Origin: a virus
IMG/VR virus record: IMGVR_UViG_3300044568_002292
Location: 1-24,237 of that record
DNA: 24,237 bases
Reading direction: 5' to 3' (one strand)
Positions 3,915-21,333 of this stretch are shown one piece after another; position 1 is the stretch's first letter; every line of letters starts with the position of its first letter. Position numbers and translations under genes: made by a program. The notes beneath the pieces were generated by a model. That model did not search any database. It was not told the origin of the DNA and worked only from the letters and a program-made list of their open reading frames with translations.

Positions 3915-5405
3915 ATGAGAGTAATAATATCAGAAAACCAATTAAAAAAGGTCCTTAAATCATCTTTAAACGAGAATGATGGTAAGGAAATTTTGGATAA
4001 AATACTATCTTGGACCAAAGATAAGATAAATCAAGTAGAAAAACTATTTGATGACCCTAAAAAAGCGGATAAATTAGATGTTGATGTTGATAGTTATTAC
4101 AACAAATTGGAAGCAATTAGTGGACCAATCGACCAGCAACAACGCGGTGGTTTTAAGTTTCAAGAAAGTGTTGAAGCGGTTCAAATAGGTTTAATTTTAT
4201 TAGATTATAAATTACCTAGATTTGGTGTGGATGGTTTATTTGGACCAGAAACAGCAGAAGCGGTAAATAAATTCAAAGAAGATAATAATATAGCGGACAT
4301 TTCATTGAACGAAGGGTTCATTAACGCTGGGTCAACAAACTATTCAAACTTAAAATTCTCATCAAAATCTAGTGGCGACAATCTTAGTCAAGCATTATTA
4401 GATGATATTCAAACTGCAGCATCAAGTGTTAATGTGGTTGCAAAGGTAACAACAGCAAATACTGGTCACAGTTATTTAACAACAACCGGAAATGTGAGTA
4501 GACACACCAAAAACATTGCGGTAGATATTGGTTATTTAAATGGTAAAGTTTGTAGTGCTAAGGGACCAGAATATGATTGTGGTTCATTTAAAACCGACGG
4601 TGACAAATTAAAAGACGCTTTGGTTTCTATGGGCTACGTTTGGAACAAAGAAAAAGGTAATCAAAAAGCCGTATTGTGGCAGACATATATTGGTGGTAAT
4701 CACTATAACCATTTACACGTTTCTAACAACGGCGAAGCTAGCGATGGACCTGTAGATGTTGCATCTGCTGCTGTTGGAGGTGCCGCTGTTGCAATAATTA
4801 CTGTTGATATGGTTAAGACCATGATTAGTAAATTACAAGCCGGGAATTTGGTTACAAGAGAAACATTAAAAACACATGTTGACCCTGCAAAAGTAACTGG
4901 TGGCAATGAAGTTTTCACCGACTTAGATTTAACAACACCAGAAGGTTATAGTGCTTATAGAAAAATATGCGATAACTATATTGCAACAAGAAACCCATCA
5001 GGACCAATCACTGGAACAATGATGGCTGACGGTGCAAAAATGGCTATGGAGAAATATAGAAAGTATGTTCCACCAGAATTAGCGTTAGCTCAAATTACTG
5101 TTGAAGGTGGGTTAGCTACCGATTATACTAACAAACCACATAGAACCAAGAATCCGTTTAACGTTGGTCAAAACAAAACAATCAGTAATCCACAACCAAC
5201 TTACCAAGCAGGTATTGATATCTACTATTCATTAATTGCTAGAAGATACATGACGAATGGTAAAACTGCTAGTAATTTGATTATGGACTTTAAAAACGAT
5301 GAAGGATCTGCATATGCGGACGCCGGCTACGAAAGAGCACTTACAAGTTTAATCGCTAGCATAAGAAAGAAAAATGAATCAATTTACAAAGAATTAGCCG
5401 TATAA
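3915..5405 (+). CDS. tagged multidomain murein hydrolase (PG-binding, M15-like peptidase, glucosaminidase-like)
   Basis: The 496-residue protein starts with the shared tag (RVIISENQLKKVL), ending at L18-N-E20. A PG_binding_1-like segment (about 85-122) contains GVDGLFGPETAEAVNKF. Residues 185-270 look like a VanY/M15 D-Ala-D-Ala-type peptidase: SRHTKNIAVDIGY gives H197 and D204, and NHLHVS gives H266 and H268, the usual zinc set. The C-terminal part (about 384-490) resembles glucosaminidase/lysozyme-like domains, with LAQITVEGGLATDY (E397 candidate catalytic acid) and KNPFNVG. It would bind peptidoglycan and cut both stem peptide and glycan. There is no secretion signal or holin beside it. 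With the tag, it is more likely virion-carried than a classical endolysin. The next gene starts on its stop (TAATG). Confidence 0.8.
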   Translation: MRVIISENQLKKVLKSSLNENDGKEILDKILSWTKDKINQVEKLFDDPKKADKLDVDVDSYYNKLEAISGPIDQQQRGGFKFQESVEAVQIGLILLDYKLPRFGVDGLFGPETAEAVNKFKEDNNIADISLNEGFINAGSTNYSNLKFSSKSSGDNLSQALLDDIQTAASSVNVVAKVTTANTGHSYLTTTGNVSRHTKNIAVDIGYLNGKVCSAKGPEYDCGSFKTDGDKLKDALVSMGYVWNKEKGNQKAVLWQTYIGGNHYNHLHVSNNGEASDGPVDVASAAVGGAAVAIITVDMVKTMISKLQAGNLVTRETLKTHVDPAKVTGGNEVFTDLDLTTPEGYSAYRKICDNYIATRNPSGPITGTMMADGAKMAMEKYRKYVPPELALAQITVEGGLATDYTNKPHRTKNPFNVGQNKTISNPQPTYQAGIDIYYSLIARRYMTNGKTASNLIMDFKNDEGSAYADAGYERALTSLIASIRKKNESIYKELAV

Positions 5406-6961
5406 TGAGATTAATACTATCAGAACAACAATATCAAAGGTTAATCCTTGAAGCCGACAAAAGAAGTGTCATAATGAGTTCACTTGGTTTTAACCAGGCA
5501 TGGGCAGATGCATTTCACCGTATAAGTGACAAGGTATCTGTTTGGATTGCTGACGCATATCTAAAAGAAATGTTACAACAAGTTCCAAAACTATCTGAGA
5601 TGGATGATGCTGAACATAGAACAATGGTTATTGGAAGGATAAACGAACATTCACCACAAAACGAGAGATTTTGGTCAGAGATGATGCCAAATTTCAGATA
5701 TATAATGGACTGGTTAAGAGGTACTAATGGCACTGTTAATTTAAGAAACTACAACTACCGTAATGCTTTAGAAGGTGCAACTGATTGGCACAATAGTTTA
5801 AGCGTGGAAGTTCAAATTAATTTCAACGAAACCAATGAAATATTTATTGACTATAGAGATAGTAGAGGTATTGGTTTTTATTGGGCTAACTTAGGAACTA
5901 GAGAATGTTCAGATGAAAAAGCTAGAATGGCTCATTGTGGTAGAGCTTCTCACGGTGTTTTATTATCATTGAGAGAGATTACGTCAAATGGTAATGGTGA
6001 ATCACATGTGACCATAGATTATGATCAAGGTATTTTATATGATTTTCATGGGAGAGCTAATAGTAAACCATCATCAAGATACCATAGATACATTGTTGAT
6101 TTCTTAAAGAACACAATATATCCAGTTAACAAATTAAGTTCTAGTGGTGTTCATAGATACCAAGATAACTTCCATTTAGCAGATTTAACTGACGAACAAA
6201 GAAGAGATGTTTATGCTAGTAACCCATCATTGAAATATGATATTGAAAATGAAAACACTTGGCCGGAGATTATTGCAGCCATTCGTTCTGGTGAATTAAA
6301 TATAAACAACTACACATTCCTTATCGCGTTAGCTTTAATGCGTTTATCTGAATATGACCCAGAATTTATTGCAAAATATGATGTAGAAATGCAAACATTA
6401 TTTAATGCATTTGATACTAGTGAAAACGTGTTACCAACTGAGGAGGCAAAGAAAATATTTATGAAGATATATGGTGAGCGTCTTATTAATTATATGAACA
6501 CCGATGAAGGTTTTGAAGAATTAATACCTACCACTAGTAAGTTTAAAGGTATTCTTAGAAGAATTAGTATGGAGTTCATTAACGTTTACCAACAGTTCTG
6601 CCCATTAATTGATAAAGGTTTTAGAAAGTGGGAAAGCGAGTTAGCTGATTTATTATCCACACCTAGATTAAGAAAGAAAATATTAAGATGTACCAATGTT
6701 GTTGATTTTTTAAATCAATACTCTGACTTCTCAACATTTGATAGTGAAGGTAATGCTTTAGTTAGAATTGACGATGAAAGTGGTGAATGGGGAATGGTTA
6801 ACAGCCAAAACGAATTCATTGTTGAACCAGATTACATTGCATTAAACTATAGTCCAATGGATAGAGATAAATTAATATTAATTGGTAAAAAACGTGACGG
6901 GTCTTTCTGGAAGATTAACTTAAGAACAAATGAAATAAAGCAATTAGCTGCTCGTTCTTAA
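5405..6961 (+). CDS. tagged 518-aa phage protein with possible PcfJ-like block and C-terminal WG-like segment
   Basis: It begins with the shared tag (RLILSEQQYQRLILEA), in which I14-L-E16 precedes A17, a good L/I-x-E cleavage site. The centre (about 175-235) reads MAHCGRASHGVLLSLRE, HVTIDYDQGI and FHGRANSKPSSRYHRYIVDFL. This order of a Cys, an S-L-R, a T-I-D and a G-x-x-N-x-x-P resembles PcfJ-like proteins, but that is a weak call. Near the C-terminus, GEWGMVNSQNEFIVEPDYIAL looks like one WG-type repeat. The gene overlaps the murein hydrolase stop by one base, so the two tagged proteins are co-expressed. It meets the minus-strand tagged gene tail to tail with a 4-base overlap. The function is unknown. 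Confidence 0.75.
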   Translation: MRLILSEQQYQRLILEADKRSVIMSSLGFNQAWADAFHRISDKVSVWIADAYLKEMLQQVPKLSEMDDAEHRTMVIGRINEHSPQNERFWSEMMPNFRYIMDWLRGTNGTVNLRNYNYRNALEGATDWHNSLSVEVQINFNETNEIFIDYRDSRGIGFYWANLGTRECSDEKARMAHCGRASHGVLLSLREITSNGNGESHVTIDYDQGILYDFHGRANSKPSSRYHRYIVDFLKNTIYPVNKLSSSGVHRYQDNFHLADLTDEQRRDVYASNPSLKYDIENENTWPEIIAAIRSGELNINNYTFLIALALMRLSEYDPEFIAKYDVEMQTLFNAFDTSENVLPTEEAKKIFMKIYGERLINYMNTDEGFEELIPTTSKFKGILRRISMEFINVYQQFCPLIDKGFRKWESELADLLSTPRLRKKILRCTNVVDFLNQYSDFSTFDSEGNALVRIDDESGEWGMVNSQNEFIVEPDYIALNYSPMDRDKLILIGKKRDGSFWKINLRTNEIKQLAARS

Positions 6962-7401
6962 TAACTTAATCGTCCCTTAACTGGGGCTGAAACGTGCCCA
7001 TCAGAAAGTACTAACATACCATCTTGATATGGTAATGTTTCGTTAGTGCCGGCAATAAACCAATCACCTTTTTTCTGGAAGATGTAAACATTACGACAAC
7101 CTAAAAATTGATTTAATCTGTCTTTAGTTGTCCTTGTTTCCCAACCACCAGTGCTAACAGTTAAAACACCAGTTGGGTCCATCTTAACAATATATGTTCT
7201 GTGGTATTTTATACCGATTGTAAACTCATCAATTTGTTCAACAAAAGTATTGTGTCCAATTTTCTTGGACGATTTTCCGCCTAGATATTCAACTAAATCG
7301 TTGAAATCGGTATAATGACATGCTAATTTAGCTTCATTTAAATGAATTTTACCCACCAAATTCATTACTTGCTCTTCTGTTAAAATGATTTTTTTGCCCA
7401 T
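6958..7401 (-). CDS. tagged conserved phage protein (SGGW/TTKDR family), 147 aa
   Basis: The start at 7401 gives MGKKIILTEEQVMNLV, the shared tag with two extra residues, ending at L21-N-E23 followed by Ala. After it comes a domain common in tailed phages: LGGKSSKKIGHNTFVEQ, YHRTYIVKMDPTGVLTVS, GGWETRTTKDRLNQFL and a final DGMLVLSDG. I recognise this pattern from many phage hypothetical proteins, but no function is established. It is the only tagged gene on the minus strand, and it still has the ATATTTAT box six bases before its ATG. That makes the tag-box association independent of gene order. Confidence 0.78.
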   Translation of the reverse strand: MGKKIILTEEQVMNLVGKIHLNEAKLACHYTDFNDLVEYLGGKSSKKIGHNTFVEQIDEFTIGIKYHRTYIVKMDPTGVLTVSTGGWETRTTKDRLNQFLGCRNVYIFQKKGDWFIAGTNETLPYQDGMLVLSDGHVSAPVKGRLSY

Positions 7402-7407
7402 AATAAT

Positions 7408-7415
7408 ATAAATAT
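7408..7415 (-). promoter_or_regulatory. ATATTTAT start-proximal box (minus strand)
   Basis: On the minus strand the sequence reads GATATTTAT, then six bases, then the ATG at 7401. It is the same box, at nearly the same distance, as at 3902, 12355, 21064 and 23343. Confidence 0.5.
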
Positions 7416-7424
7416 CACAACATT

Positions 7425-7456
7425 TTTGTTTTTTAAAGTATTTTCCTATATATTAG
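7425..7456 (+). promoter_or_regulatory. candidate -33/-7 promoter with near-leaderless start
   Basis: TTTG at 7425-7428 is followed after 20 bases by TATATTAG (7449-7456), one mismatch from TAnnTTTG. The ATG at 7461 comes only four bases after the box, so the transcript would be leaderless or nearly so. The same TATATTAG lies three bases before the ATG at 21390. Confidence 0.45.
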
Positions 7457-7460
7457 TCAA

Positions 7461-7952
7461 ATGATAGAAAAAATAGACAAAATATATGTTTATTTGGATG
7501 ATATTCGAACACCTACATCCAATAATTGGATTGTTGTAAGAAATTACAAGGAATTTGTTGATATCATTAATGAACATGGATTGGATAACATTGAAGTTAT
7601 CTCATTGGATCATGATCTTGGTGAGACGGCTATGATTGAATATTACAACAATGTAAAAAAGAATTATGTTTTAGAGTATAGTAATATTGAGGAGAAAACC
7701 GGATATGATGCTTGCAAATACCTTGTGAGTAAAAGTATGGAAACGGGAATACCACTTCCTCAAATATATGTTCACTCCGCAAATCCAATCGGTAGCGCTA
7801 ATATGATGGGGTATATTAACAATTACTTTAAGAATTGCAGAACCCCTCAAACATGTATACAAGCAAGTACGCCACACACAGTTGATGAATCCTTATACTT
7901 ATCCCCTGAAGCTAGAAAAGCAAAATGGGATAGAACCAAAACAGAAGAATAA
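7461..7952 (+). CDS. cREC-type (cyclic-phosphate-processing receiver-like) protein
   Basis: The 163-residue protein has a receiver-like pattern with LDDIRTPT (12-19), ISLDHDLG (47-54), GYDACKYL (81-88) and HSANPIGSANM (105-115). These are the landmarks of the cREC family, receiver-like domains predicted by comparative genomics to process cyclic phosphate ends during RNA repair; they are frequent in phages. There is no phospho-acceptor partner kinase nearby, so a signalling role is unlikely. Together with the HAD protein at 2444 it gives two predicted RNA-repair proteins in the window, though they are not adjacent. It ends on the start of the methyltransferase gene (TAATG). Confidence 0.75.
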   Translation: MIEKIDKIYVYLDDIRTPTSNNWIVVRNYKEFVDIINEHGLDNIEVISLDHDLGETAMIEYYNNVKKNYVLEYSNIEEKTGYDACKYLVSKSMETGIPLPQIYVHSANPIGSANMMGYINNYFKNCRTPQTCIQASTPHTVDESLYLSPEARKAKWDRTKTEE

Positions 7953-8980
7953 TGACACATGGATCGTTTTTTAGTGGTATAGGTGGCTTTGATTTAGCCG
8001 CTGAATGGGTTGGGTGGGAAAATAAATTTCATTGCGAAATTGAGCCCTTCTGTCAAAAAGTTTTAAATCATTATTGGCCGGATGCGGAATTATTTGAAAA
8101 CATAAAAACAGCAAATTTTGAAAAATATAGAAATAAAGTCCGAGTTATTAGTGGAGGATTCCCATGTCAACCATATTCAATCGCGGGTAAGCGACTTGGT
8201 AAGGAAGACGATCGTCACCTCTGGCCTTTCATGCTTGAAGGTATTAGACAAATCAACCCAGATTACGTCGTGGGCGAAAATGTTTTTGGCCTCACTAGTT
8301 GGAATGAAGGATTGGTCCTCGAAGAGGTGTGTCTTGACCTGGAAAACGAAGGTTACCAAGTACAACCGATTATTGTTCCAGCTGCAGGTGTCGGTGCTCC
8401 GCACAAAAGAGATAGAATCTGGATCGTGGCTTCTAAAAACACCAACAAAAATGGATGGGGAAGTTTCAAGCGGAAAATCCAATCCAGTTTCGGGGAACAG
8501 TGGGACCTTAGCACAGGAGATTATGAGTGGTTATCAACCGACGATGAAGAAGTTGGGGCTACTACCGACGCCAACAACACAGGAGATAGAACATCCGAAC
8601 GCAATATTATCACCAACGGGTCGCAGAGTAGCGCGCAATGGGGAAACTCACAGCTTGAATCTGGCGGACATGGCGATAAGAGGAATGTTACCGACAGTAA
8701 TGGCGAGAGATTTCAGGGGAGCGAGATCATTGGAAGCGTTGGAGAAATCGGGCAGAGGGAAAAACAATTCCCTCCCAGATTATTACGCACAAACTGGGAA
8801 GAGTTCCCAACTCAATCCCCGATTTGTACTGGAGATGATGGGCTTCCCAGCGAATTGGACGGAATTGCCGTTTCAAAATGGAAAAAACAAACAATAATGG
8901 CATCTGGTAATGCTATTGTTCCTAACATCGCATACAATATATTTCAAGTAATTCAACAAATGGATAAATTAACAGTATGA
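7952..8980 (+). CDS. C5-cytosine DNA methyltransferase, full length
   Basis: The 342-residue protein has FFSGIGGFDLA (6-16), the catalytic GGFPCQPYS with C72, GENVFGL (108-114), and motif VIII as GVGAPHKRDRIWIVA (146-160). The end has ASGNAIVPNIAYNIFQVI, the usual motif X helix. Between about 160 and 290 the sequence is polar and low in hydrophobics (DANNTGDRTSER, GGHGDKRNVTDSNGE). That is typical of this phage subfamily, and it coincides with a second long open frame at 8118-8897. WEEFPTQSPICTGDDGLPSEL near the end is also characteristic of the subfamily. It would methylate cytosine at an unknown target. Confidence 0.92.
   Translation: MTHGSFFSGIGGFDLAAEWVGWENKFHCEIEPFCQKVLNHYWPDAELFENIKTANFEKYRNKVRVISGGFPCQPYSIAGKRLGKEDDRHLWPFMLEGIRQINPDYVVGENVFGLTSWNEGLVLEEVCLDLENEGYQVQPIIVPAAGVGAPHKRDRIWIVASKNTNKNGWGSFKRKIQSSFGEQWDLSTGDYEWLSTDDEEVGATTDANNTGDRTSERNIITNGSQSSAQWGNSQLESGGHGDKRNVTDSNGERFQGSEIIGSVGEIGQREKQFPPRLLRTNWEEFPTQSPICTGDDGLPSELDGIAVSKWKKQTIMASGNAIVPNIAYNIFQVIQQMDKLTV
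8118..8897 (+). CDS. overlapping second frame inside the methyltransferase gene, LPTP/LNPRF-type protein
   Basis: A 259-residue frame lies entirely inside the methyltransferase gene, shifted +1. Its second two-thirds do not look like a random shadow. VLTWKTKVTKYNRLLFQL, LLKTPTKMDGE, LLPTPTTQEIEHP, LPTVMARDFRGARS and LNPRFVLEMMGFPANWTELPF match a recurrent family of phage and metagenomic proteins, often annotated as methyltransferase-related. The first 60 residues overlap catalytic codons of the main frame and may not be translated; internal starts are possible. It may be a true overlapping gene, the product of frameshifting from the main frame, or a conserved artefact of how the main frame is constrained. 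I favour real dual coding, without proof of translation. Confidence 0.45.
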   Translation: MKNIEIKSELLVEDSHVNHIQSRVSDLVRKTIVTSGLSCLKVLDKSTQITSWAKMFLASLVGMKDWSSKRCVLTWKTKVTKYNRLLFQLQVSVLRTKEIESGSWLLKTPTKMDGEVSSGKSNPVSGNSGTLAQEIMSGYQPTMKKLGLLPTPTTQEIEHPNAILSPTGRRVARNGETHSLNLADMAIRGMLPTVMARDFRGARSLEALEKSGRGKNNSLPDYYAQTGKSSQLNPRFVLEMMGFPANWTELPFQNGKNKQ

Positions 8981-9171
8981 AAAAAATCATTGGCTTGTTT
9001 CTCATAACACTATTCTTTTCTTCTTGTAATCCCCGTTTGTATATTATTGGTAGTGGTATGAGATATCACAATCTTTCACAAAACAAATATCAACCCAGTA
9101 AACATAGAAAGAAAGTAAATGTTGGCTCAAGTCGATATTCACCAGTATGGTTTATACTAAGAAAATTTTAA
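8977..9171 (+). CDS. small lipoprotein, 64 aa
   Basis: The N-terminus KKIIGLFLITLFFSSC is a lipoprotein signal peptide with the lipobox ending at C17. The mature part is short, basic and tyrosine-rich (NPRLYIIGSGMRYHNLSQ, SKHRKKVNVGSSRYSPVW). It would be anchored to a host membrane facing the periplasm. Small phage lipoproteins may act in superinfection exclusion or as outer spanins. No partner inner-membrane spanin is next to it, so neither role is supported. Its start overlaps the methyltransferase stop by four bases (ATGA). Confidence 0.72.
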   Translation: MKKIIGLFLITLFFSSCNPRLYIIGSGMRYHNLSQNKYQPSKHRKKVNVGSSRYSPVWFILRKF

Positions 9172-9182
9172 AATAAAAAAAT

Positions 9183-9854: not shown

Positions 9855-9867
9855 TAATAATATTTTT

Positions 9868-9897
9868 TTTGTTTTTAATAAAAAAATAATAATTTTA
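9868..9897 (+). promoter_or_regulatory. weak -33/-7-like promoter in an AT-only gap
   Basis: TTTG (9868-9871), 18 bases, then TAATTTTA (9890-9897), one mismatch from TAnnTTTG. It lies in a 63-base gap that is almost pure A/T, so part of the similarity could be chance. A run of eight T's at 9863-9870 could also end transcription of the exonuclease gene. Confidence 0.3.
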
Positions 9898-12355: not shown

Positions 12356-12362
12356 TATTTAT
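12355..12362 (+). promoter_or_regulatory. ATATTTAT start-proximal box
   Basis: GATATTTAT ends four bases before the ATG at 12367, matching the boxes at 3902, 7408 (minus), 21064 and 23343. Confidence 0.5.
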
Positions 12363-12366
12363 TGGT

Positions 12367-12627
12367 ATGAAATTAATTATCACAGAATCCCAACTATCAT
12401 TAATCCAAGAATCATCCTACAATGGTTTGTTCGAGGGTGATAGTATCCGTGTAGCATCATTTCATAGAAGAAAGATGCCAAAAGCGGTTGAAAAGAACGT
12501 ATTAGCATCTATTTCAAAGCAGGTCCCAGGTAACGCAACCTCATTTAAATTAAGGGCCGGTGAATACAATGATCTCGAAATTAATTTATTCGGACAATTA
12601 TTAGTATTTTTAAGGGGAGATTATTAA
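12367..12627 (+). CDS. tagged small protein, 86 aa
   Basis: The N-terminus KLIITESQLSLIQESS is a clear copy of the shared tag, with I13-Q-E15 as the L/I-x-E site before serine. The rest (FEGDSIRVASFHRRK, LRAGEYNDLEINLFGQLLVFLRGDY) is short, with several beta-strand-like stretches, and is not recognised. If the tag is cleaved, a product of about 71 residues remains, similar in size to small internal head proteins. It is the last gene before a promoter for the DnaA-like gene. Confidence 0.7.
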   Translation: MKLIITESQLSLIQESSYNGLFEGDSIRVASFHRRKMPKAVEKNVLASISKQVPGNATSFKLRAGEYNDLEINLFGQLLVFLRGDY

Positions 12628-12681: not shown

Positions 12682-13080
12682 ATGCAAAACACACAAGTGC
12701 TTATCAGTCCCTACGTATTTCCAGGTTTAAAACTTAACGGATTATCCAAAAAACAGTTTGCATTTCTTAAAAAAGCCGTCGTAACAATTACGAGGGAAGA
12801 AATTGTTAACATCGTATTAGAAGGATGTGAAGTTACATTAGAACAATTGGTTTCCAGATGTCGTGAACGCGATATTGTTGACGCAAGAAAAATAACCTGC
12901 AAAGTTTTAAAAACAAAGTTTAACTATTCATTAAAATCTATCGGTGATTTTATTGGTGGTAGAGATCACACAACTGTGATTCATTCTATCACTGAGTTTG
13001 ATTCATTGTATAGTAACAATGATGCGTTTAAAGCAAAGGCGGATAGAATTCTTGACAAGGTTGGTATTGAGATTAGATAA
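12682..13080 (+). CDS. stand-alone DnaA domain IV-like DNA-binding protein
   Basis: The 132-residue protein carries the DnaA C-terminal helix-turn-helix. SRCRERDIVDARKITCKVLK (about 58-77) and SLKSIGDFIGGRDHTTVIHSI (about 83-103) reproduce the DnaA signature, including GGRDHTTVIH, which contacts DnaA boxes. The AAA+ ATPase part of DnaA is absent, so it cannot melt DNA on its own. It may mark a phage origin, compete with host DnaA for boxes, or act as a transcription factor. Its own promoter with strong host consensus suggests early expression. One perfect DnaA box (6653-6661) occurs in the window, but only inside another gene. Confidence 0.85.
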   Translation: MQNTQVLISPYVFPGLKLNGLSKKQFAFLKKAVVTITREEIVNIVLEGCEVTLEQLVSRCRERDIVDARKITCKVLKTKFNYSLKSIGDFIGGRDHTTVIHSITEFDSLYSNNDAFKAKADRILDKVGIEIR

Positions 13081-13111: not shown

Positions 13112-13630
13112 ATGCAAACAAAAATGATTAAAGTACATCTTAAAGATGGTAAAATTTGTACAGATTTATTTGAAACCCCATCACAAGCAATAAAAAAATA
13201 CGGCATAACAAACATCGCGAAACTAGAAGAAGTTAATGATAAAAAACTTATCATCACTAAACCTAGAGATTCGCAAATCATTTTAGAAGTTAGCAAGCGA
13301 ACCGAAGAAGATTTAAAGTTATCTAAAGAATGTGGTTACACATTAGCATATACCAAACCATCAATGGATAAAATCTATAGCGGTATGGTGTTTGTTGAAT
13401 CATCTGATAAAAATGTGTTGGTATCAGAATTCCAACGCTTAGAGAAGTTCGATAAACTAGTACATTATCACTGGAAGAACATTGGTTACAAGCCGGCTAA
13501 AACTTGGAAGGTTGCTTTGTATCATAAGAATGCGAAGTTAATCACTAAAGAAGAAGCGGAGAAACAATATGGTAAATTAACTAACACCATCGGTGGTATT
13601 GGTTACATCAATAGAACAAAGGCAAAGTAA
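13112..13630 (+). CDS. hypothetical protein, 172 aa
   Basis: A soluble, lysine-rich protein. The first 60 residues look like a small beta domain (IKVHLKDGKICTDLFETPSQAIKKYG). The middle contains LSKECGYTLAYTKPSMDKIYSGMVFVESSD, and the end has YHKNAKLITKEEAEKQYGKL and a glycine-rich IGGIGYINRT. No catalytic motif or family is recognised. An alternative start at 13124 would remove four residues. It sits one base ahead of the third methyltransferase and probably shares its transcript. Confidence 0.65.
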   Translation: MQTKMIKVHLKDGKICTDLFETPSQAIKKYGITNIAKLEEVNDKKLIITKPRDSQIILEVSKRTEEDLKLSKECGYTLAYTKPSMDKIYSGMVFVESSDKNVLVSEFQRLEKFDKLVHYHWKNIGYKPAKTWKVALYHKNAKLITKEEAEKQYGKLTNTIGGIGYINRTKAK

Positions 13631-13631
13631 T

Positions 13632-14249
13632 ATGAAAATATTAAACCTATATGCTGGCATCGGCGGAAACAGAAAACTCTGGGGTGATGAACATCAAGTA
13701 ACTGCGGTTGAATTAAACCCTTTGATGGCAAACATTTACAAGGATTTGTTTCCGAATGATGAATTGGTTATTGGAGATGCTCACGAATATTTGCGTTTAC
13801 ATTATAAAGAATTTGATTTTATCTGGACATCTCCGCCATGTCAAAGTCACTCATCATTTCGCCATAACATATGTGTTCGCTTTAGAGGAACCGAAGCTCA
13901 TTACCCTGACATGAAATTGTACGAGGAGATTATATTCCTTAAACATCATGCACAGGGATTATGGGTTGTTGAGAATGTTAAACCATACTATGAACCGCTT
14001 ATCAAAGGTAATCTTATTCAGCGACATTTGTTCTGGAGTAATTTTGATATCCCAAATATTGAAATGAAGAAGGATGTAATTAGAAAAGCACAGATACCCG
14101 ACCTAGAGAAGCATCATGGTTATGATTTATCAATGTACAAGTTACCGAATAAACGTCAAGTGTTAAGGAACTGTGTATACCCAGAACTAGGTAAGCACGT
14201 ATTTGATTCAGCACTTGTTAAAACCGTGGAAAATGTTACCCAAGCGTAA
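13632..14249 (+). CDS. compact C5-cytosine methyltransferase-like protein
   Basis: With the ATG at 13632 the 205-residue protein begins ILNLYAGIGGNRKLW, motif I of C5 methyltransferases. The catalytic motif is TSPPCQSHS with C70, followed by WVVENVKPYY (111-120) as motif VI and RHLFWSNFDIP for the strand after it. The target-recognition region is small. This branch, with SPPCQSHS and a compact C-terminus, is common in phages. An in-frame start at 13593 would overlap the previous gene and place 13 unrelated residues before motif I. It is the third C5 methyltransferase here and differs from the other two in every motif. Confidence 0.82.
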   Translation: MKILNLYAGIGGNRKLWGDEHQVTAVELNPLMANIYKDLFPNDELVIGDAHEYLRLHYKEFDFIWTSPPCQSHSSFRHNICVRFRGTEAHYPDMKLYEEIIFLKHHAQGLWVVENVKPYYEPLIKGNLIQRHLFWSNFDIPNIEMKKDVIRKAQIPDLEKHHGYDLSMYKLPNKRQVLRNCVYPELGKHVFDSALVKTVENVTQA

Positions 14250-15594: not shown

Positions 15595-15596
15595 CT

Positions 15597-16019
15597 ATGG
15601 AAATTAATAATAAGATATTTTACTTTAGTATTAAGAAAGCCAAGGACTGTTTGTTTTCTAGAAGAAACGGCTATCAAGGTATATTATTGTTTGGGTATTC
15701 AATCTTTCTTAGTATCAAATATATCGAACAAAGAAAAACTGATAAGCGTTTTAATGCTGCGGTGATAGAACCATTATCAAAAAAGATACAAGAAGAAATA
15801 GACAGACAGGTAGTTGAAGAAGTAACTAACTTAGCTATTCAATATAAAAGATATGTGGAGCATTGGGGTGATCCTATTGACCCTATTAATTATAAGTTAT
15901 ATAGTATGGAAACGGACATGCCATGCTTTCATACTGAGAATAGATTATTCACTATAAAGGAGTTTGAATGCCAGCGCTTCAGTAATAAAGCATTTAGAGA
16001 GATGTGGGAATTAAAATGA
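15597..16019 (+). CDS. hypothetical protein, 140 aa
   Basis: Starts three bases after the previous stop. It has a moderately hydrophobic stretch at about 26-43 (YQGILLFGYSIFLSIKYI) that could be a membrane span. A charged helical region follows (EPLSKKIQEEIDRQVVEEV) and then a tail with PCFHTENRLFTIKEFECQRFSN. No family is recognised. Confidence 0.6.
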   Translation: MEINNKIFYFSIKKAKDCLFSRRNGYQGILLFGYSIFLSIKYIEQRKTDKRFNAAVIEPLSKKIQEEIDRQVVEEVTNLAIQYKRYVEHWGDPIDPINYKLYSMETDMPCFHTENRLFTIKEFECQRFSNKAFREMWELK

Positions 16020-16025
16020 TAACCA

Positions 16026-16223
16026 ATGAAAACAGCAGTACAGTGGTTAAAAGAACAATATATTGACCGTGGTGAAACAATACCATCAGGTGTATTCCAA
16101 GAAGCACTTGAAAAAGAAAAAGAGCAGATAATAGATGCGGCAAAGTCCTGTAATTATATTGGTGGTGCAACAAATATAGAAGCCGAAGAATACTACAACC
16201 AAACCTATAACCAAAACAAATAA
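16026..16223 (+). CDS. small phage protein (KTAVQWLxEQ family), 65 aa
   Basis: The pattern MKTAVQWLKEQYI, LEKEKEQIIDAAKSC and AEEYYNQTYN recurs in many small Bacteroidota phage proteins, with a helix, a 'K-E-K-E-Q-I' helix and a terminal 'AExYYNxTY'. The function is unknown. It begins six bases after the previous stop in a run of small genes with tight spacing. Confidence 0.7.
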   Translation: MKTAVQWLKEQYIDRGETIPSGVFQEALEKEKEQIIDAAKSCNYIGGATNIEAEEYYNQTYNQNK

Positions 16224-16226
16224 CCT

Positions 16227-16472
16227 ATGACACCTAAAGAAGAAGCGAGAAAGGTAACTCTTAAAAACTTAAAAGGGATCAGAGATAGTACTTCGCTAGA
16301 AACCAGTATAAGAATCGGCATATCAATGGCTGATTATGATAACTGGGACAATGGTGATTACAATGGTGATAGAGATTTAATTAATAGACAGGTTGATATT
16401 GTTTTATCTAATATTGAAGAATGGGTAAAAAACAATTATATTAATCCAATAAGAAAAAAAGATGAACTATGA
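16227..16472 (+). CDS. small phage protein (MTPKEEA start), 81 aa
   Basis: An acidic, mostly helical protein (TPKEEARKVTLKNLKGI, IGISMADYDNWDNGDYNGD, IVLSNIEEWVKNNYI). 'MTPKEkA' starts are common in small Bacteroidota phage proteins. There are no catalytic motifs. Its TGA overlaps the next ATG. Confidence 0.62.
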   Translation: MTPKEEARKVTLKNLKGIRDSTSLETSIRIGISMADYDNWDNGDYNGDRDLINRQVDIVLSNIEEWVKNNYINPIRKKDEL

Positions 16473-16555
16473 TAAAACAATTTTTCAAGGATTTTCTGCT
16501 TGGCTTAAAAATTGCAGAGGAAAACCGTCACAAATGTCAAATAGGTAAAATATGA
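16469..16555 (+). CDS. possible 28-aa microprotein
   Basis: A short frame (IKQFFKDFLLGLKIAEENRH in outline) overlaps the preceding stop by four bases (ATGA), and its own stop overlaps the next ATG by four bases in the same way. The chain of couplings fills the gap exactly, which is the main reason to call it. It is short enough to be chance. Confidence 0.35.
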   Translation: MIKQFFKDFLLGLKIAEENRHKCQIGKI

Positions 16556-16761
16556 TCTTCATTAAGAATAGGTTCAAGGATAGATGTCGATTAGGGATTG
16601 GCTCGAGCTTTATTTTTTCTGGGGATTATTGCACGGTGGTTAAAATGGGATATAATGGATTTAAGTACACCAATCAATCCAAACCCAATGCCGATTGCTA
16701 TATGGAGTATCAATTTTATTTAAAAACCCCGTCTGCTGCCGGCAGACAATTAAATCGATAA
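16552..16761 (+). CDS. small hypothetical protein, 69 aa
   Basis: A basic, aromatic protein (FIKNRFKDRCRLGIGSSFIF, GYNGFKYTNQSKPNADCYME) with a likely beta-rich fold. No family is recognised. Near its 3' end, GTCTGC (16731) and GCAGAC (16742-16747) form a GC-rich inverted repeat inside the coding region. There is no T run behind it, so it is not an obvious terminator. Confidence 0.5.
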   Translation: MIFIKNRFKDRCRLGIGSSFIFSGDYCTVVKMGYNGFKYTNQSKPNADCYMEYQFYLKTPSAAGRQLNR

Positions 16762-16765
16762 TAAC

Positions 16766-16873
16766 ATGAAAATTATTTCAACAATTGCATTAGTAGCGGT
16801 CGCAGGTTGTGTATTAACAGCAATCTATTGGGTTGTTAAAGAGTTACCAATACACAGAGACCTCGAAGAATAA
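16766..16873 (+). CDS. small membrane protein, 35 aa
   Basis: A 35-residue frame with one hydrophobic helix (IISTIALVAVAGCVLTAIYWVV), then an acidic tail. AVAGC at residues 11-15 resembles a lipobox, but the mature part would be only about 20 residues. It fits between the previous stop and the epimerase start with one base to spare. The function is unknown. Confidence 0.45.
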   Translation: MKIISTIALVAVAGCVLTAIYWVVKELPIHRDLEE

Positions 16874-16874
16874 T

Positions 16875-17690
16875 ATGAGAATTTTAATAACAGGGACAAA
16901 TGGTTTTATTGGTAAAAATCTATTAAACGAACTTATAAATAACCATATAATTTTAGAAATAAATGAAGATTATTTTAATTTACCTAAATGGCATGATGAA
17001 ATATTTCATTTATTAAAAGATTTTATTCCCGATGTTATATTTCACGTAGGTGCTTGTTCCAATACGTTGGAAACAGATGTTAATTACATGATGACCAGAA
17101 ACTATGAATTTACTCGTTGTTTATCTGAATGGGCAAATGATATGGATAGTAAACTTATTTATTCATCATCCGCAGCTAATTACGGAACCAATGGTGTACA
17201 TCCTTCTAACCTATATGGTTGGAGTAAGTATGTTGCGGAACAATTAGTAATTAAAAATGGTGGAATTGCTTTACGCTATTTTAATGTGTATGGTCCACTA
17301 GAACATAATAAAGGAAAGATGGCGTCAGTTGCATATCAAATGTTACAAAAACAAAAAGAAGGTTTGGATATTAAATTATTTCCACTTAAACCTAAACGAG
17401 ATTTTGTTTACATAAAAGATATTATAAATGCCAACATATTTGCTATGGAAAATTATGAAGAAAATTCTGGTGATTGGTATGAAGTTGGTAGCGGTATTTC
17501 AAGAACTTTTGAAGATGTGCTAGATAATTTAAACATACAATACACATATCATGATGAAAAAGATATTCCTAATGGATATCAGTTCCATACTGAAAGTAAA
17601 TCACATAAATGGATGTTTGGTTGGGAATCTAAATGGAATTTAGAAGACGGTCTTAAAGATTATATTTTTAACCTAAAAAATAAAAGATAA
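16875..17690 (+). CDS. NAD(P)-dependent sugar epimerase, HldD-like
   Basis: From the ATG at 16875 the 271-residue protein starts RILITGTNGFIGKN, the Rossmann GxxGxxG motif. It has YSSSAANYG (96-104) and the catalytic YGWSKYVAE with Y114 and K118. The later part, FNVYGPLEHNKGKMASVAYQ (136-154), closely follows ADP-glycero-manno-heptose 6-epimerase (HldD/RfaD), and KPKRDFVYIKDI fits the same branch. The protein is shorter than bacterial HldD, which is about 310 residues. It may modify nucleotide sugars for host surface glycans or for glycosylation of phage material. A frame opening at 16833 would overlap the preceding small gene and is rejected. Confidence 0.8.
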   Translation: MRILITGTNGFIGKNLLNELINNHIILEINEDYFNLPKWHDEIFHLLKDFIPDVIFHVGACSNTLETDVNYMMTRNYEFTRCLSEWANDMDSKLIYSSSAANYGTNGVHPSNLYGWSKYVAEQLVIKNGGIALRYFNVYGPLEHNKGKMASVAYQMLQKQKEGLDIKLFPLKPKRDFVYIKDIINANIFAMENYEENSGDWYEVGSGISRTFEDVLDNLNIQYTYHDEKDIPNGYQFHTESKSHKWMFGWESKWNLEDGLKDYIFNLKNKR

Positions 17691-17691
17691 T

Positions 17692-17895
17692 ATGAAAACG
17701 CTATTTTTAATCTATTGGTTGCTAACAACCATCGCCGGTGTTTATTTGATTATTAAAACCCCACCAGATAGAAAATATCAGGATGATGAGTTTTCATTGC
17801 TGGATGTTATGGCGTGTATTTTTCCATGTGCATGTATCGCCTGGGCTGTGGTTCCAATGGTATTATTACACAAAGTTAAATTTAAAAGACCATAA
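17692..17895 (+). CDS. small two-span membrane protein, 67 aa
   Basis: Hydrophobic segments at about 3-21 (TLFLIYWLLTTIAGVYLII) and 37-59 (LDVMACIFPCACIAWAVVPMV), separated by an acidic loop (PPDRKYQDDEF), with a basic end. It starts one base after the epimerase stop. The function is unknown. Confidence 0.62.
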   Translation: MKTLFLIYWLLTTIAGVYLIIKTPPDRKYQDDEFSLLDVMACIFPCACIAWAVVPMVLLHKVKFKRP

Positions 17896-17936
17896 TAGTT
17901 TCATAATCAATTAATTGTGCTTTATTTAAAAATATT

Positions 17937-17967
17937 TTTGTGAAATCAAGAATATTTTTTAGTTTTG
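17937..17967 (+). promoter_or_regulatory. Bacteroidota housekeeping-type promoter
   Basis: TTTG at 17937-17940, a 19-base spacer, and TAGTTTTG at 17960-17967 match the -33/-7 consensus exactly. The expected start near 17971 gives a leader of about 15 bases before the ATG at 17986. It excludes the in-frame TTG at 17965 as a start. A second TAnnTTTG (17933-17940) overlaps the -33 element. Confidence 0.68.
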
Positions 17968-17985
17968 TGTTTTAAATTAAACAAA

Positions 17986-20900
17986 ATGGATTATTTAGTT
18001 GATGGTTTAGGATTTGATACAGCAAAGGAACAATATTTTACTAACACCTATGCTTGGCAATATATTATCCCCGACGCAAAGAAATCAAAAACCTTTATTG
18101 GTAAATCGGGTATAACTAAATACGATGTTAATACTGCAATGGGTGAAGCTTCACCAACAAGAGGAAGACAATTTCATCAATTAGCGTTATGGGGTTATGA
18201 AGCTGATAGAAAATACATAAAGAAAGGAACAACACAAGAACAGGCGATTGAAATAGTGAAAAAAATGGACTATTTCTTCAAGGATGATATGGTTGAAATT
18301 GGTTGGAATTTAAGACACAATAAAGTAAGTAGAGAGATTGGAACAGAGTTTTATGAAGGTCCATCGGAAACGTGGTTAGAAACAATAAAACAAAAATGGA
18401 ATGAAGCGTTCATTAAAGCAAATCAATTAGTTATAGGTGAAGTTGATGGACAGGATTTAGGTGATATGAGTGTGATGGGTAGTCAAGGTGTGGTTACCGA
18501 ACAAATCAACGAGGTATTAAATAAACATAAGAAAGTAAGAGCAATCATTCCTTGTGGATATGGTAAAGGATTTTTAGAATTTAGAGGTGTATATAAATTT
18601 GATAAAGCAAAGAAAAATAAAATCATAGTTTATTATTGCCACAACATACCCGCAACAAAACAATTATCAGTTAAACACGCAGAATATTCTGACGGAACAA
18701 TCTATCAAGGAACAATGAATAGATATGTTGTTTGTTCTGAAAAGAAATATGTTAAAGGACAAGCGAGTTTTGGTATTGAAAACTATTCTGCTACCGATGG
18801 AAAGTTAAAAGATATTATTAAAGAAGCGTTATTGTCTAAACAAAGAACGGCGTTTTATGTAAATAATAAAAGTGCTGGTGAGTTTAATGATACATTTAGA
18901 ACTATTGCCAATCAAGTAAGATACACAAAAAAACCATTTGCGTTTATTGATGAGGAACAAGAGTTTTGTGGACACATCAGTTCAAGTAAAACTGATGCTA
19001 TTTTAAATCCTATTGCTGAATATCAAGTATCATTTACCGCAACTGAAAGACAAAGAGGAACGGATAAAAATGAAGATAGAATTTATAATGATGATGTAGA
19101 ACATTTTGGTGTGGTTGCGATTGAAATTACACCATCAGAAACGATTACCGAAGGAAGAAGTTGTCCGATACATTTTAAAACTATTGAGGTTTCTGAAAAT
19201 CATCAACTAATGAGACAGATTGGTGTGAATGGTATTATTGAAAGTGTATTTGGTGATGAGACAAGTGCTGCTGTTAGAGGTAGAATGTTAAGAGCGATAG
19301 TTTGTTTAGTAAAATCAATTAAAGAAGAAGATAAAACACATCCTTTATTAGTCACCAGTTTAATTGTTGATACAGAGAACGCAATTATTTTAATCAATAA
19401 ACTTATTGAACATGGTATTATACCTAATGACTATGTTGTTGTTAGAGGTTTGAGACAAGATGGGTTAGATGAAACAAAAAGATTTAATTTATTAGAGAAA
19501 GGTATTATGGTTGGTAGTCCTTGGTTGGTGACTGGTATTGACGCTCCTAACATTGATGCTCTTGTACCGACATATGATATGGGTAGTGAAATCACTGCAA
19601 CACAATTTATCGGTAGAGGACAAAGACCCGTTGATGATAAAGAATTATCTGTTTATATTCCTATTGATCCAAGTGAAACATTTATACCATCAATGTTGCG
19701 TGTCGCTAATAATTTTATATTGGGTGAGAACTCACATAACATCGGTAGAAATACAATATTAGAAGAAGGTGAAGTTATACTTGGTTCAATTCAAAGAAGA
19801 AGAATAACATCTGATATTGATAGAGAGGTTAATATGAATGCGGCTTATAGAAATTATTGGGATAATATCTATAATGATTTAACCACTAATGAGATTGGAA
19901 GTGCAAGTGACTATTCACATTTTTTACCTTTTGAAGAGGCAAGAGAATATGTAAGGGGATTGGGAATAAAAACCTTAATTGAATATGAAGAATATTGTGT
20001 CTCAGGAAATAAACCAAATTTTATACCTTCAAATGCTTATAGAGTATATCAAAACGATTGGTTAAGTTGGGGAGATTTTCTTGGCACTAAACCTGGTTGG
20101 AAAGGAGAATATAAACCATTTGATGTGGCTCGTAAATATGTGTGGTCCTTGAATTTAAAAAACCAAGATGAATGGCAAAGATTTTCATCGTCAGGAGAAA
20201 GACCATTTGATATTCCAGCAAACCCTAAAAGTGTTTATGGAGAGGAATATATTTCAATGTACGATTGGTTGGGTACAAAAAAAGGTTGGATTGGTTATAT
20301 GGATTATAATGAACTTGTTAAATATATTAAACCATTGAATATTAAAAGTAATAGTGAATGGAATGACTATTGGAAGAAAAATAAAAAACCTGATAACATT
20401 CCCGCTTGTCCACAAAACATATATAAAGAATGGGTTAGTTGGTATAAGTTTTTAGGTACTAAAGAAAAAGTTCCATATGTTTCATACAAAGAGGCACATA
20501 AAATTATATTAAAATTAAAACTTAAATCATTAAAAGAATGGGGAGTATGGAGTAAAACTAATAGACCTGATGGTATTCCATCTAACCCACAATTAATTTA
20601 TAAGAATGATGGTTGGGAAAGTTGGGGTGTGTTTTTAGGAACGGGTGTGATTGCTGATAAGAATAAATCTTTCTTACCATATAAAAAAGCAAGAAAGGTT
20701 ATACATTTAGTTGGGCTAAAAACTGCGGCGGAATGGAGAGAGTATTCTTCATCAAATAAAAGACCTTCTAATATTCCTGCGGCACCACAACAATATTATC
20801 AATCAACAAATGAATGGGTAAGTTGGGGTGATTGGTTAGGTAATGGTGGAATAAACAATAAAGATAAGTATTCAAAAAAAGAAATTGATTACGCAAAAAA

Positions 20901-21000
20901 ATTACTTAAAAGTGGAATAACACAAGATGAGGTGAGAGAAAAAACAGGTATGTCAAGACATATGATGTGGAAATTAAGTAGTGAATTAAAAAAGAAATAA
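17986..21000 (+). CDS. SF2 helicase fused to five phage-integrase-type repeats and an HTH
   Basis: The 1004-residue protein has SF2 helicase motifs: motif I IIPCGYGKGF (187-196), with GKG in place of GKT/S; motif II IDEEQ (321-325); motif III SFTAT (349-353); motif V about 510-525; and motif VI QFIGRGQRP (540-548). A 640-aa N-terminal part is followed by five repeats of about 60 residues at roughly 647-708, 710-770, 773-829, 833-896 and 898-952. Each has an 'A-x-x-x-L-x-L/I-K-x-x-x-E-W' half and an 'IP-x-x-P-x-x-x-Y ... W-x-S-W-x-x-x-LG' half, as in the phage-integrase repeat unit family (PF14882). The end (963-1000) has a helix-turn-helix, SGITQDEVREKTGMSRHMMW. It probably binds and remodels DNA; the repeats and HTH would give the DNA specificity. 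Confidence 0.8.
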   Translation: MDYLVDGLGFDTAKEQYFTNTYAWQYIIPDAKKSKTFIGKSGITKYDVNTAMGEASPTRGRQFHQLALWGYEADRKYIKKGTTQEQAIEIVKKMDYFFKDDMVEIGWNLRHNKVSREIGTEFYEGPSETWLETIKQKWNEAFIKANQLVIGEVDGQDLGDMSVMGSQGVVTEQINEVLNKHKKVRAIIPCGYGKGFLEFRGVYKFDKAKKNKIIVYYCHNIPATKQLSVKHAEYSDGTIYQGTMNRYVVCSEKKYVKGQASFGIENYSATDGKLKDIIKEALLSKQRTAFYVNNKSAGEFNDTFRTIANQVRYTKKPFAFIDEEQEFCGHISSSKTDAILNPIAEYQVSFTATERQRGTDKNEDRIYNDDVEHFGVVAIEITPSETITEGRSCPIHFKTIEVSENHQLMRQIGVNGIIESVFGDETSAAVRGRMLRAIVCLVKSIKEEDKTHPLLVTSLIVDTENAIILINKLIEHGIIPNDYVVVRGLRQDGLDETKRFNLLEKGIMVGSPWLVTGIDAPNIDALVPTYDMGSEITATQFIGRGQRPVDDKELSVYIPIDPSETFIPSMLRVANNFILGENSHNIGRNTILEEGEVILGSIQRRRITSDIDREVNMNAAYRNYWDNIYNDLTTNEIGSASDYSHFLPFEEAREYVRGLGIKTLIEYEEYCVSGNKPNFIPSNAYRVYQNDWLSWGDFLGTKPGWKGEYKPFDVARKYVWSLNLKNQDEWQRFSSSGERPFDIPANPKSVYGEEYISMYDWLGTKKGWIGYMDYNELVKYIKPLNIKSNSEWNDYWKKNKKPDNIPACPQNIYKEWVSWYKFLGTKEKVPYVSYKEAHKIILKLKLKSLKEWGVWSKTNRPDGIPSNPQLIYKNDGWESWGVFLGTGVIADKNKSFLPYKKARKVIHLVGLKTAAEWREYSSSNKRPSNIPAAPQQYYQSTNEWVSWGDWLGNGGINNKDKYSKKEIDYAKKLLKSGITQDEVREKTGMSRHMMWKLSSELKKK

Positions 21001-21026
21001 GGTTTTGTTTTGATGAGCAATCCTTG

Positions 21027-21052
21027 ACCCTCGGCGAAAGTCGGGGGTTTTT
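21027..21052 (+). terminator. Rho-independent terminator after the helicase gene
   Basis: CCCTCGGC (21028-21035), GAAA loop, GTCGGGGG (21040-21047), followed by TTTTT. The stem has eight pairs including two G-T pairs, and A21027/T21048 may extend it. It is the strongest classical terminator here and separates the helicase gene from the tagged gene at 21076. Confidence 0.88.
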
Positions 21053-21063
21053 ACATTGAGCGG

Positions 21064-21071
21064 ATATTTAT
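21064..21071 (+). promoter_or_regulatory. ATATTTAT start-proximal box
   Basis: GATATTTAT ends four bases before the ATG at 21076 and lies directly after the terminator. Since the terminator closes the upstream unit, a promoter is needed in this 23-base stretch, and the box is the only candidate I see. Confidence 0.58.
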
Positions 21072-21075
21072 AAAC

Positions 21076-21333
21076 ATGAAGTATATAATTTCCGAGGATC
21101 AATACAAGAAGATAGCCCAGAGCATTAGCGAGATGGGTGAGAACGATATCCATTTAAAGACGGTTATGGCTCACTACGATGCTGCGGACTTGGAAAGACA
21201 AATTGAAATGACCCATGTTATCACCGGAAAGAGGCGAGCCGACCGAAACCGGGTATACAACGCCCTCAGGGAGATGGGATATCTGGAGATTCTCGATGTC
21301 CAATATGAACTAAACATACTAGATATGGAATAA
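21076..21333 (+). CDS. tagged small protein, 85 aa
   Basis: The N-terminus KYIISEDQYKKIAQSISE is the shared tag, with I17-S-E19 as the L/I-x-E site. The remainder is helical and charged (IHLKTVMAHYDAADLERQIE, VITGKRRADRNRVYNALREM) and looks able to bind nucleic acid, with its cluster of Arg and Lys, but no family is recognised. It stands alone as a monocistronic unit between two terminators, with an ATATTTAT box in front. Base composition is more GC-rich than in the helicase gene before it. Confidence 0.72.
   Translation: MKYIISEDQYKKIAQSISEMGENDIHLKTVMAHYDAADLERQIEMTHVITGKRRADRNRVYNALREMGYLEILDVQYELNILDME

Follow-up and report, generated by a model that had tools for sequence, protein, structure and literature searches.

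Unrelated phage proteins sharing N-terminal peptides that end in [LI]-x-E: candidate cleavable prohead-targeting propeptides

Five window proteins and their common N-terminus

The window, a stretch of viral DNA of 24,237 nucleotides (IMG/VR record IMGVR_UViG_3300044568_002292), raises the question of why five otherwise unrelated proteins should begin with much the same short peptide. The five ORFs are present among the called ORFs with the N-termini that had been given for them, and the claim of the preliminary description, that they share an N-terminal motif and helix ending in [LI]-x-E, proved true and lies far outside what chance would give. A DNA pattern written for this motif, which misses the gene at 7401 because extra residues precede its motif, matched four times in the window, against none in 100 shuffles and none on backward reading. 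The triplet, said to end at residues 15-23, is read at residues 20, 16, 23, 15 and 19 of proteins of 496, 518, 147, 86 and 85 residues, respectively. Because the inner I/L-[ST]-E is itself an [LI]xE, there are two or more candidate cut sites in every peptide. The tags, which we call class A, and the bodies behind them are as follows, a slash marking the predicted cut.

3915..3974, plus strand: class A tag, residues 1-20, MRVIISENQLKKVLKSSLNE/N, predicted cut after LNE (ORF, DNA pattern, shuffles, homologue junction)
3975..5405, plus strand: body of the murein-hydrolase-like tagged protein (PG_binding_1, PF01471, E 7e-5, residues 84-126; PHROG endolysin, E 1e-4)
5405..5452, plus strand: class A tag, residues 1-16, MRLILSEQQYQRLILE/A, predicted cut ILE/A (ORF, DNA pattern, junction in homologues, pLDDT <50)
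5453..6961, plus strand: body of the 518-aa protein, PcfJ-like by fold comparison (Foldseek against BFVD)
7333..7401, minus strand: class A tag, residues 1-23, MGKKIILTEEQVMNLVGKIHLNE/A, predicted cut LNE/A (ORF translation)
6958..7332, minus strand: body of the SGGW protein, Kyanoviridae Gp96 / phrog_554 family (PF23790, E 1e-8; phrog_554, E 2e-13)
12367..12411, plus strand: class A tag, residues 1-15, MKLIITESQLSLIQE/S, predicted cut IQE/S (ORF, DNA pattern)
12412..12627, plus strand: body of the 86-aa protein (no family match in Pfam or PHROG at E 0.1)
21076..21132, plus strand: class A tag, residues 1-19, MKYIISEDQYKKIAQSISE/M, predicted cut ISE/M (ORF, DNA pattern)
21133..21333, plus strand: body of the 85-aa protein (weak family matches only in Pfam and PHROG, E 0.03 or worse)

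Foldseek comparison of a model of the 518-aa protein with BFVD gave two PcfJ-like proteins (E 1e-5 and 1e-4, with low TM-scores), and nothing among solved structures at E 0.001 or better. The mean pLDDT of the model is 60; it lies below 50 at residues 1-16, the tag, and at 77-91 in blocks of residues 21-130.

We consider it very probable that the shared peptides are cleavable prohead-targeting propeptides, whose cargo is cut free in the capsid and delivered with the genome. The best reading is that they act like the capsid-targeting sequences (CTS) of T4, yet are modular and unrelated to them in sequence. The N-terminal helix would bind the prohead core, so that an unrelated protein would be carried into the growing head; an S77 (gp21-type) protease would cut after the [LI]-x-E that closes the helix, setting the cargo free inside the capsid, and the freed cargo would be delivered together with the genome. 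We infer the core binding, the cutting, the location in the virion and the delivery from the patterns described below.

The class A family in relatives

The search for further proteins bearing the pattern, which the preliminary description had proposed, found none besides these five among the 105 called genes of this phage's longest contig, which has 80,602 bases. In relatives, the peptide, with the consensus MKxII[ST]ExQ[YFL]KKL, stands at the head of 145 non-redundant proteins, of which at least one, G021:104488, is false, its start being an ATG inside a DUF192 gene; DUF192 is for this reason left out of the cargo. The counts are not independent events, because the tags are related by descent and several of the contigs nearly duplicate one another. 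Across 19 large contigs the pattern gave 1-10 matches per contig, and a stricter forward pattern gave at least 120 hits, against 33 for a shorter reversed one. The tagged proteins match 24 Pfam families, so that a short N-terminal peptide is common to otherwise unrelated proteins, and in an alignment of 131 of them the consensus is confined to the first 16 residues.

An [LI]xE lies within 22 residues past the motif in 115/145 proteins, whereas shuffling gave 51 ± 5 (maximum 73 in 1000 shuffles) and the untagged genes used for comparison 650/2102. With [LIVMF]xE the count rises to 129; 16 tags are without this triplet and 30 without [LI]xE in the same 22 residues. The first hydrophobic-x-E ends 5 to 21 residues past the Q. 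Class A conservation stops just past the E, with column information of 0.6-1.3 bits in the free columns before it, 0.6 at +1 and 0.09-0.23 from +2 onward.

The class A motif could be explained by the helix alone if this were an uncleaved docking peptide that stays on the protein and anchors it to the capsid lining, the tail, RNA polymerase or a membrane, the E being part of the helix; an RNA polymerase partner would also fit the sigma factors among the tagged proteins. We regard this as improbable. The E is not replaced by D or K, [LI]xD (41, against 36 shuffled) and [LI]xK (56, against 61) staying near their shuffled values, while as a counter-signal [LI]xN is somewhat raised (57 against 43), as is [LI]xxE (74 against 49). 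Further points against docking come from the homologues and from gp23, as described next.

Leader exchange at the junction and the head genes

Homologues of two of the window bodies bear other leaders, namely those of two further classes, T4-like ones and fused domains. Class B leaders are exemplified by MNLQENIHRIKQMMGVINE or MKKxLxEELxRIHxxTYGKKxxxE, and class C, which is short, by MKYLIKKILKE; the same cargo is seen behind class A, class B, class C or T4-IPIII-like [YF]xxFIxE leaders. T4-like leaders on the same bodies include MENLKSFGEFINE/A in a 430-kb contig and MNNIKSFGDFINE/M in a 435-kb contig, and a DHH-like body carries MISKYNQFINE/E in a 635-kb and MLRKYGQFINE/E in a 642-kb record, T4 ipII and ipIII themselves beginning MKTYQEFIAE/A. 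Classes A and B occur together in 7/8 records examined in full.

The preliminary description held that its proposal would fall if homologues of the bodies did not keep the E at the cut point; the E is kept. In the 518-aa family, hydrophobic-x-E stands at the junction in all 18 rows (the window protein, one truncated duplicate and 16 further distinct homologues), while the peptide before it is replaced. The murein hydrolase family agrees: all 20 homologues with a different leader have hydrophobic-x-E at residues 23-25, a count of homologues picked by leader and made without a shuffled control. When all tagged families were pooled, a site was found near the junction in 25/40 homologues, and exactly on it in 18 (shifted controls: mean 4.6, largest 10), with 15 having no site near the junction. 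The leaders of 15 of these homologues are near-variants of class A (nine with and six without a site), and among the 25 with quite different leaders 16 have one. In fused copies the site is present in 17/27 and absent in 10/27, and tags also sit between fused domains; leaderless copies of some bodies exist as well (L143, L110). The tag is the module and the predicted cut site the constant part. Neither the swapping in of unrelated helices while hydrophobic-x-E persists, nor the presence of tags between fused domains, is what a permanent docking helix would lead one to expect.

A gp21-type S77 protease is encoded in 28 of 31 large contigs, namely 16/19 class A contigs of at least 100 kb and 12/12 others. 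Its co-occurrence with the tags was considered as proof and rejected as weak: of 16 large contigs selected by PolB, 12 have S77 and none has the class A pattern. The annotation of Flavobacterium phage immuto includes a prohead protease and gp23, and the class A pattern is absent from this phage. The capsid protein gp23 is present in 15/19 contigs of at least 100 kb, and in the class A relatives it carries L-[IL]-[NTY]-E/[AS] near residue 60 in 10/10 extracted sequences (13 tried), so that a triplet similar to that of the tags closes its N-terminal stretch, a further argument against an uncleaved docking peptide. The portal gp20 was found in 4/7 relatives, the three that lack it also being without gp23 and S77. 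The four records of the window phage, which are fragments of up to 80.6 kb, gave no match to S77, gp23 or gp20. The earlier proposal of cleavable packaging tags is therefore supported by the E kept in homologues, by the protease in 16/19 class A contigs and by the matching gp23 junction in relatives.

The closest known counterpart is the CTS of T4 (IPI, IPII, IPIII and the Alt propeptide, cut by gp21), likewise a short N-terminal peptide on differing proteins with an [LI]xE end and an S77 protease; its length is 7-19 residues (PMC9026906), compared with about 8-25 for the tags here. In contrast to it, none of the three classes A, B and C looks like MKTYQEFIAE (comparison of class A with T4 ipI, ipII and ipIII by eye showed no sequence relation to [YF]xxFIxE), packaging here is predicted from sequence, and a single contig can carry as many as ten class A matches, with classes A and B occurring together. 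The giant phages phiKZ and SPN3US resemble them in that head and ejection proteins are cut after glutamate by a gp21-related protease, as described in PMC9026906, whereas the capsid protein of the phages here is of the gp23 type. The T4-type gp23 propeptide shares an L-[IL]-x-E/[AS] junction within the same phages, but it comprises about 60 residues on the capsid protein and is no cargo tag.

Cargo, range and an upstream element

Tagged bodies with a Pfam match include lysozymes, M23 peptidases and sigma factors, and in relatives wall hydrolases and ECF-like sigma factors are among the cargo. Mutants of T4 IPIII have defects in head assembly, according to PMC9026906, and the tags could accordingly be real prohead tags on cargo that works solely in the head, in assembly or in condensing the DNA, and never reaches the host; we think this very unlikely, as lysozymes, M23 peptidases and sigma factors have no evident use there. 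The relatives suggest that a group of giant phages loads many different proteins into its heads by means of interchangeable, probably removable labels, perhaps so that they enter the bacterium together with the DNA. More tentatively, an uncultivated clade of giant phages with gp23-type capsids might possess a general modular loading code, in which any protein with an [LI]xE leader is packed, cut free and injected. If so, the injected ECF-like sigma factors would arrive ready to switch the host RNA polymerase at time zero, and the DHH-like phosphoesterase could destroy nucleotide signals of host defence. Wall hydrolases would be cargo too, as would polyproteins that are split into their domains within the prohead.

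To our knowledge, the cargo that giant phages inject alongside their DNA is mostly unknown, and finding out usually means growing the phage and analysing the proteome of its virions. If the reading is true, a tag that can be recognised, with a fixed cut site, would make it predictable from sequence alone, even for phages that have never been grown; it would flag virion-borne sigma factors and possible counter-defence enzymes, provide new short labels for loading proteins into phage heads and extend the capsid-targeting idea far beyond T4, to unrelated sequences.

The searches made turned up no cultured phage with class A tags. Two queries with 20-residue consensus sequences, short and K/I-rich and thus perhaps filtered, matched nothing in 50,697 phage records, and neither did the murein hydrolase, the GVP body or one further tagged protein in the search of cultured phages. 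The class A pattern is likewise absent from Salicola SCTP-2 and two huge-phage records. Among 84,980 bacterial and archaeal genomes there was a single hit, in a Dokdonia MAG, which we rejected as a host clue; a flippase frame runs into the phage tag there, and the sequence is probably a chimera. That the host belongs to the Bacteroidota is only a guess.

Four of the five window genes are preceded by the heptamer TATTTAT.

3903..3909, plus strand: TATTTAT promoter-like element, beginning 12 nt before the ATG of the 3915 gene
7408..7414, minus strand: TATTTAT element, beginning 13 nt before the ATG of the 7401 gene
12356..12362, plus strand: TATTTAT element, beginning 11 nt before the ATG of the 12367 gene
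21065..21071, plus strand: TATTTAT element, beginning 11 nt before the ATG of the 21076 gene

This spacing of 11-13 nt, together with the frequent clustering of tagged genes, might be taken to mean that a mobile regulatory cassette or translation signal, made up of promoter, start region and first codons, is copied as a unit, the peptide itself being inert. Such an origin seems highly improbable, because in matched DNA the residues of the class A motif are kept while the codons vary, the distance from the Q to the first hydrophobic-x-E is not constant, and TATTTAT is missing within 30 nt of 65/145 tagged genes. On the 80.6-kb contig it precedes 4/5 tagged genes and 3/100 others (Fisher p 4e-5); enrichment is absent in two relatives, G018 (0/9 tagged, against 51/296) and G013 (1/4, against 46/154). 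It does not precede gp23 (0/7), and is found before prohead protease genes in 7/7 cases, before head and tail homologues together in 20/42 and before metabolic homologues in 4/36, as a promoter-like element common to tagged genes and some head genes.

Class A tags and the residues that end them

The five open reading frames named in the preliminary description were recovered, with N-termini as described there:

3915, plus strand: murein-hydrolase-like protein
5405, plus strand: 518-aa protein
7401, minus strand: SGGW/Gp96 protein
12367, plus strand: small protein
21076, plus strand: small protein

Each begins with a tag of class A, a peptide family with the general form MKxII[ST]ExQ[YFL]KKL. 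The class A DNA pattern had four matches in the window, and none in 100 shuffles or when read backwards. Four longer contigs, between 35.8 and 80.6 kb in length, belong to the same phage, and on the 80.6-kb one, with its 105 called genes, our rule for class A picked out these five genes and no others. Among viral contigs, at least 120 stretches matched a stricter class A pattern, compared with 33 for the reversed pattern, which is shorter and hence looser. The 19 contigs of at least 100 kb among the matches listed, which were picked by the pattern itself and include near-duplicates of one another, each had 1–10 matches when a looser forward pattern was used, and no match when that pattern was reversed. 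A search of 84,980 bacterial and archaeal genomes gave a single class A match, in a Dokdonia MAG contig (L441) where a flippase frame runs into the phage tag peptide, and which is probably a chimera.

From the fetched records we collected 199 tagged N-termini, 149 of them non-redundant; removal of those deep inside longer frames or shorter than 60 residues left 145 tags, at least one of which (contig record G021:104488) is a false member. An alignment of 131 tagged proteins gave the consensus MKIIITExQYKxLxxE, with almost no conservation beyond it. The collecting pattern made no demand for an [LI]xE site, and such a site lay within 22 residues past the motif in 115 of the 145 tags, against 51 ± 5 after shuffling (maximum in 1000 shuffles, 73). 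With E replaced by D, K or Q the counts were near expectation (41 versus 36, 56 versus 61 and 18 versus 16), and with N or S somewhat above it (57 versus 43 and 40 versus 30); [LI]xxE was also in excess (74 versus 49), as expected from two adjacent hydrophobic residues. In untagged genes, residues 10–31 held [LI]xE in 650 of 2102. The distance from the Q to the end of the first hydrophobic-x-E was 5 to 21 residues, most commonly 6 or 7 and next 10 or 11. Anchored at the E, the tags carried 0.6–1.3 bits in the free upstream columns, 0.6 at +1 and 0.09–0.23 from +2 onward.

Leader swapping at a fixed junction

The strongest evidence in this analysis is the swapping of leaders, that is, of whatever N-terminal peptide precedes the protein body, at a fixed junction. 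A profile scan found 33 loci for relatives of the 518-aa protein, of which 30 were read (two identical copies and one lacking its N-terminus were omitted); with near-copies dropped, 18 rows remained, comprising the window protein, L474 (a truncated copy of L445) and hence 16 distinct further homologues. Hydrophobic-x-E stood at the junction in all 18 rows, with A (16) or V (2) as the next residue. In the window the leader belongs to class A; among the relatives it is MKLIESIRQIITE, MKTINLIEQLILE, MNTNIRNILREGLIVE, MKKRLDEQINKIKNIMGISELITE, MRKLDSKILRIQEIIGVSSMLME or others, and some relatives have a fused part of 128–261 residues in its place.

For the murein hydrolase, the scan gave at least 79 loci, 41 non-redundant among the matches listed. 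Hydrophobic-x-E fell at residues 23–25 in 20 of 20 homologues with a class B-like leader (such as MKKxLxEELxRIHxxTYGKKxxxE), a set selected by leader pattern and without a shuffled control, in which one member (L480) is closer to class A; left uncounted among the 41 were the window hydrolase, the closely related L479 and many proteins whose similarity is confined to the C-terminal domain and whose leaders are of other kinds.

When all tagged bodies were pooled, these two families included, 25 of 40 non-redundant homologues that are not strictly class A had the site no more than three residues away from the projected junction, 18 of them exactly at it; shifted junctions gave a mean of 4.6 and a maximum of 10. 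Near-variants of class A accounted for 15 of the 40 (nine with the site, six without), and 16 of the remaining 25 had it. Copies fused within longer proteins showed the site in 17 of 27, and the bodies at L143 and L110 have no leader at all. An entire class A peptide lies between two domains of a fused protein in L064:1275-2519 and L040:3165-6152, and L102:1740-3620 carries it twice in tandem at the N-terminus; it looks as if some cargo may be made as polyproteins.

Comparison with T4 capsid targeting

We propose, by analogy, that the class A tag would work like the T4 capsid-targeting sequence (CTS), directing packaging and then being cut off. The class A tag shows the architecture and a predicted cut site of a CTS, and homologues of its cargo conserve that site, although the T4 peptide has no sequence relation to class A. 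A review (PMC9026906) states that gp21 cuts after L/I-X-E, that T4 internal protein propeptides are 10–19 residues long and that the first 10 residues of IPIII suffice for packaging; its authors suggest there that the CTS allows T4-like phages to load various proteins. T4 ipII and ipIII begin MKTYQEFIAE/A (slash, junction), and ipI has TITE/A at residue 19. The T4 spacing [YF]xxFIxE recurs in leaders of the hydrolase domain on 430- and 435-kb contigs, MENLKSFGEFINE/A and MNNIKSFGDFINE/M, and of a DHH-like body in 635- and 642-kb records, MISKYNQFINE/E and MLRKYGQFINE/E. The papers searched include the T4 and SPN3US work; none of them joins capsid targeting sequence, T4-like phages and metagenomes, and class A motif strings occur in them solely in an unrelated plant paper.

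The gp21-type prohead protease (S77) was present in 16 of the 19 class A contigs of at least 100 kb; the other three also lack gp23 and gp20, and may therefore be fragments. It was found in all 12 chosen contigs bearing relatives of the 518-aa and hydrolase bodies, as a weak match in the 430- and 435-kb ones. This co-occurrence is no proof, because S77 was also present in 12 of 16 contigs selected by PolB, none of which had the class A pattern. The four records of the window phage gave no match to S77, gp23 or gp20. We tried 13 gp23 proteins of class A relatives and extracted 10, all with FLINE/A, YLINE/A, ALLNE/S, ALLTE/A or HLIYE/A near residue 60; T4 gp23 loses 65 residues, according to the same review (PMC9026906). 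Tag ends are often spelled like this gp23 junction (LINE/S, LLNE/T).

Putative cargo, upstream element and neighbouring genes

The 131 tagged proteins matched 24 Pfam families, with no named replication enzyme among them, and 66 PHROGs families. The Pfam matches comprised sigma-70 regions (four members), phage lysozyme (three), M23 peptidase, phage tail lysozyme domain and PG_binding (two each), and LysM, GDSL lipase, DHH, Gp96 and others (one each). Three tagged ECF-like sigma factors examined singly (L045:9257-9811, L099:4743-5279 and L052:3425-4030) each match region 4 with an E value no higher than 6e-16, and L130:3787-4794, a 96% match to L045, probably encodes another; untagged homologues exist. 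The tag on these proteins would mean that sigma factors are packed in the virion. By fold comparison the 518-aa body is PcfJ-like, matching two phage proteins at E 1e-5 and 1e-4 with low TM-scores, and its predicted model has pLDDT below 50 at residues 1–16 and 77–91 for blocks 21–130. The DHH-like protein (L051:9382-10959, L555, L556), a possible counter-defence enzyme whose Pfam DHH match is weak and under Pfam's cut-off, has at least five different leaders across giant phages, class A in L051 and elsewhere MKKLIKE/S, MKIKKNTQVIIE/S and MLKKNRNILTE/G among them.

TATTTAT occurs 12 times over both strands of the window, and four copies start 11–13 nt upstream of tagged ATGs; the fifth tagged gene (5405) and the one before it (3915, also tagged) overlap by a single base. 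On the 80.6-kb contig the element lies within 30 nt upstream of 4/5 tagged genes versus 3/100 others (p 4e-5), and in eight pooled records of 26/60 versus 362/2068 (p 4e-6), with no enrichment in contig records G018 (0/9 versus 51/296) and G013 (1/4 versus 46/154). Within 40 nt it precedes 7/7 prohead protease and 6/6 portal genes, 0/7 gp23 genes, 20/42 head and tail homologues together and 4/36 metabolic genes (all four helicase). We infer a late-type promoter.

A longer contig of the phage (L173:5618-6085, in G002) encodes a NifU_N/IscU-type scaffold with TATTTAT upstream of the gene. Other genes of the window are:

96-422: A-type iron–sulphur carrier (Fe-S_biosyn)
641-1273, 7952-8980 and 13593-14249: C5-cytosine methylase-like, three within 24 kb, of which one is full-length and the other two match Pfam over part of their length
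12682-13080: adjoins a tagged gene and encodes a small protein that contains the DNA-binding domain found at the C-terminus of DnaA (Bac_DnaA_C, E 5e-18)
17965-21000: large helicase-like protein with an integrase-repeat (INT_rpt) match, its C-terminal part partially matched in jumbo phages XacN1, CM1 and RAS14
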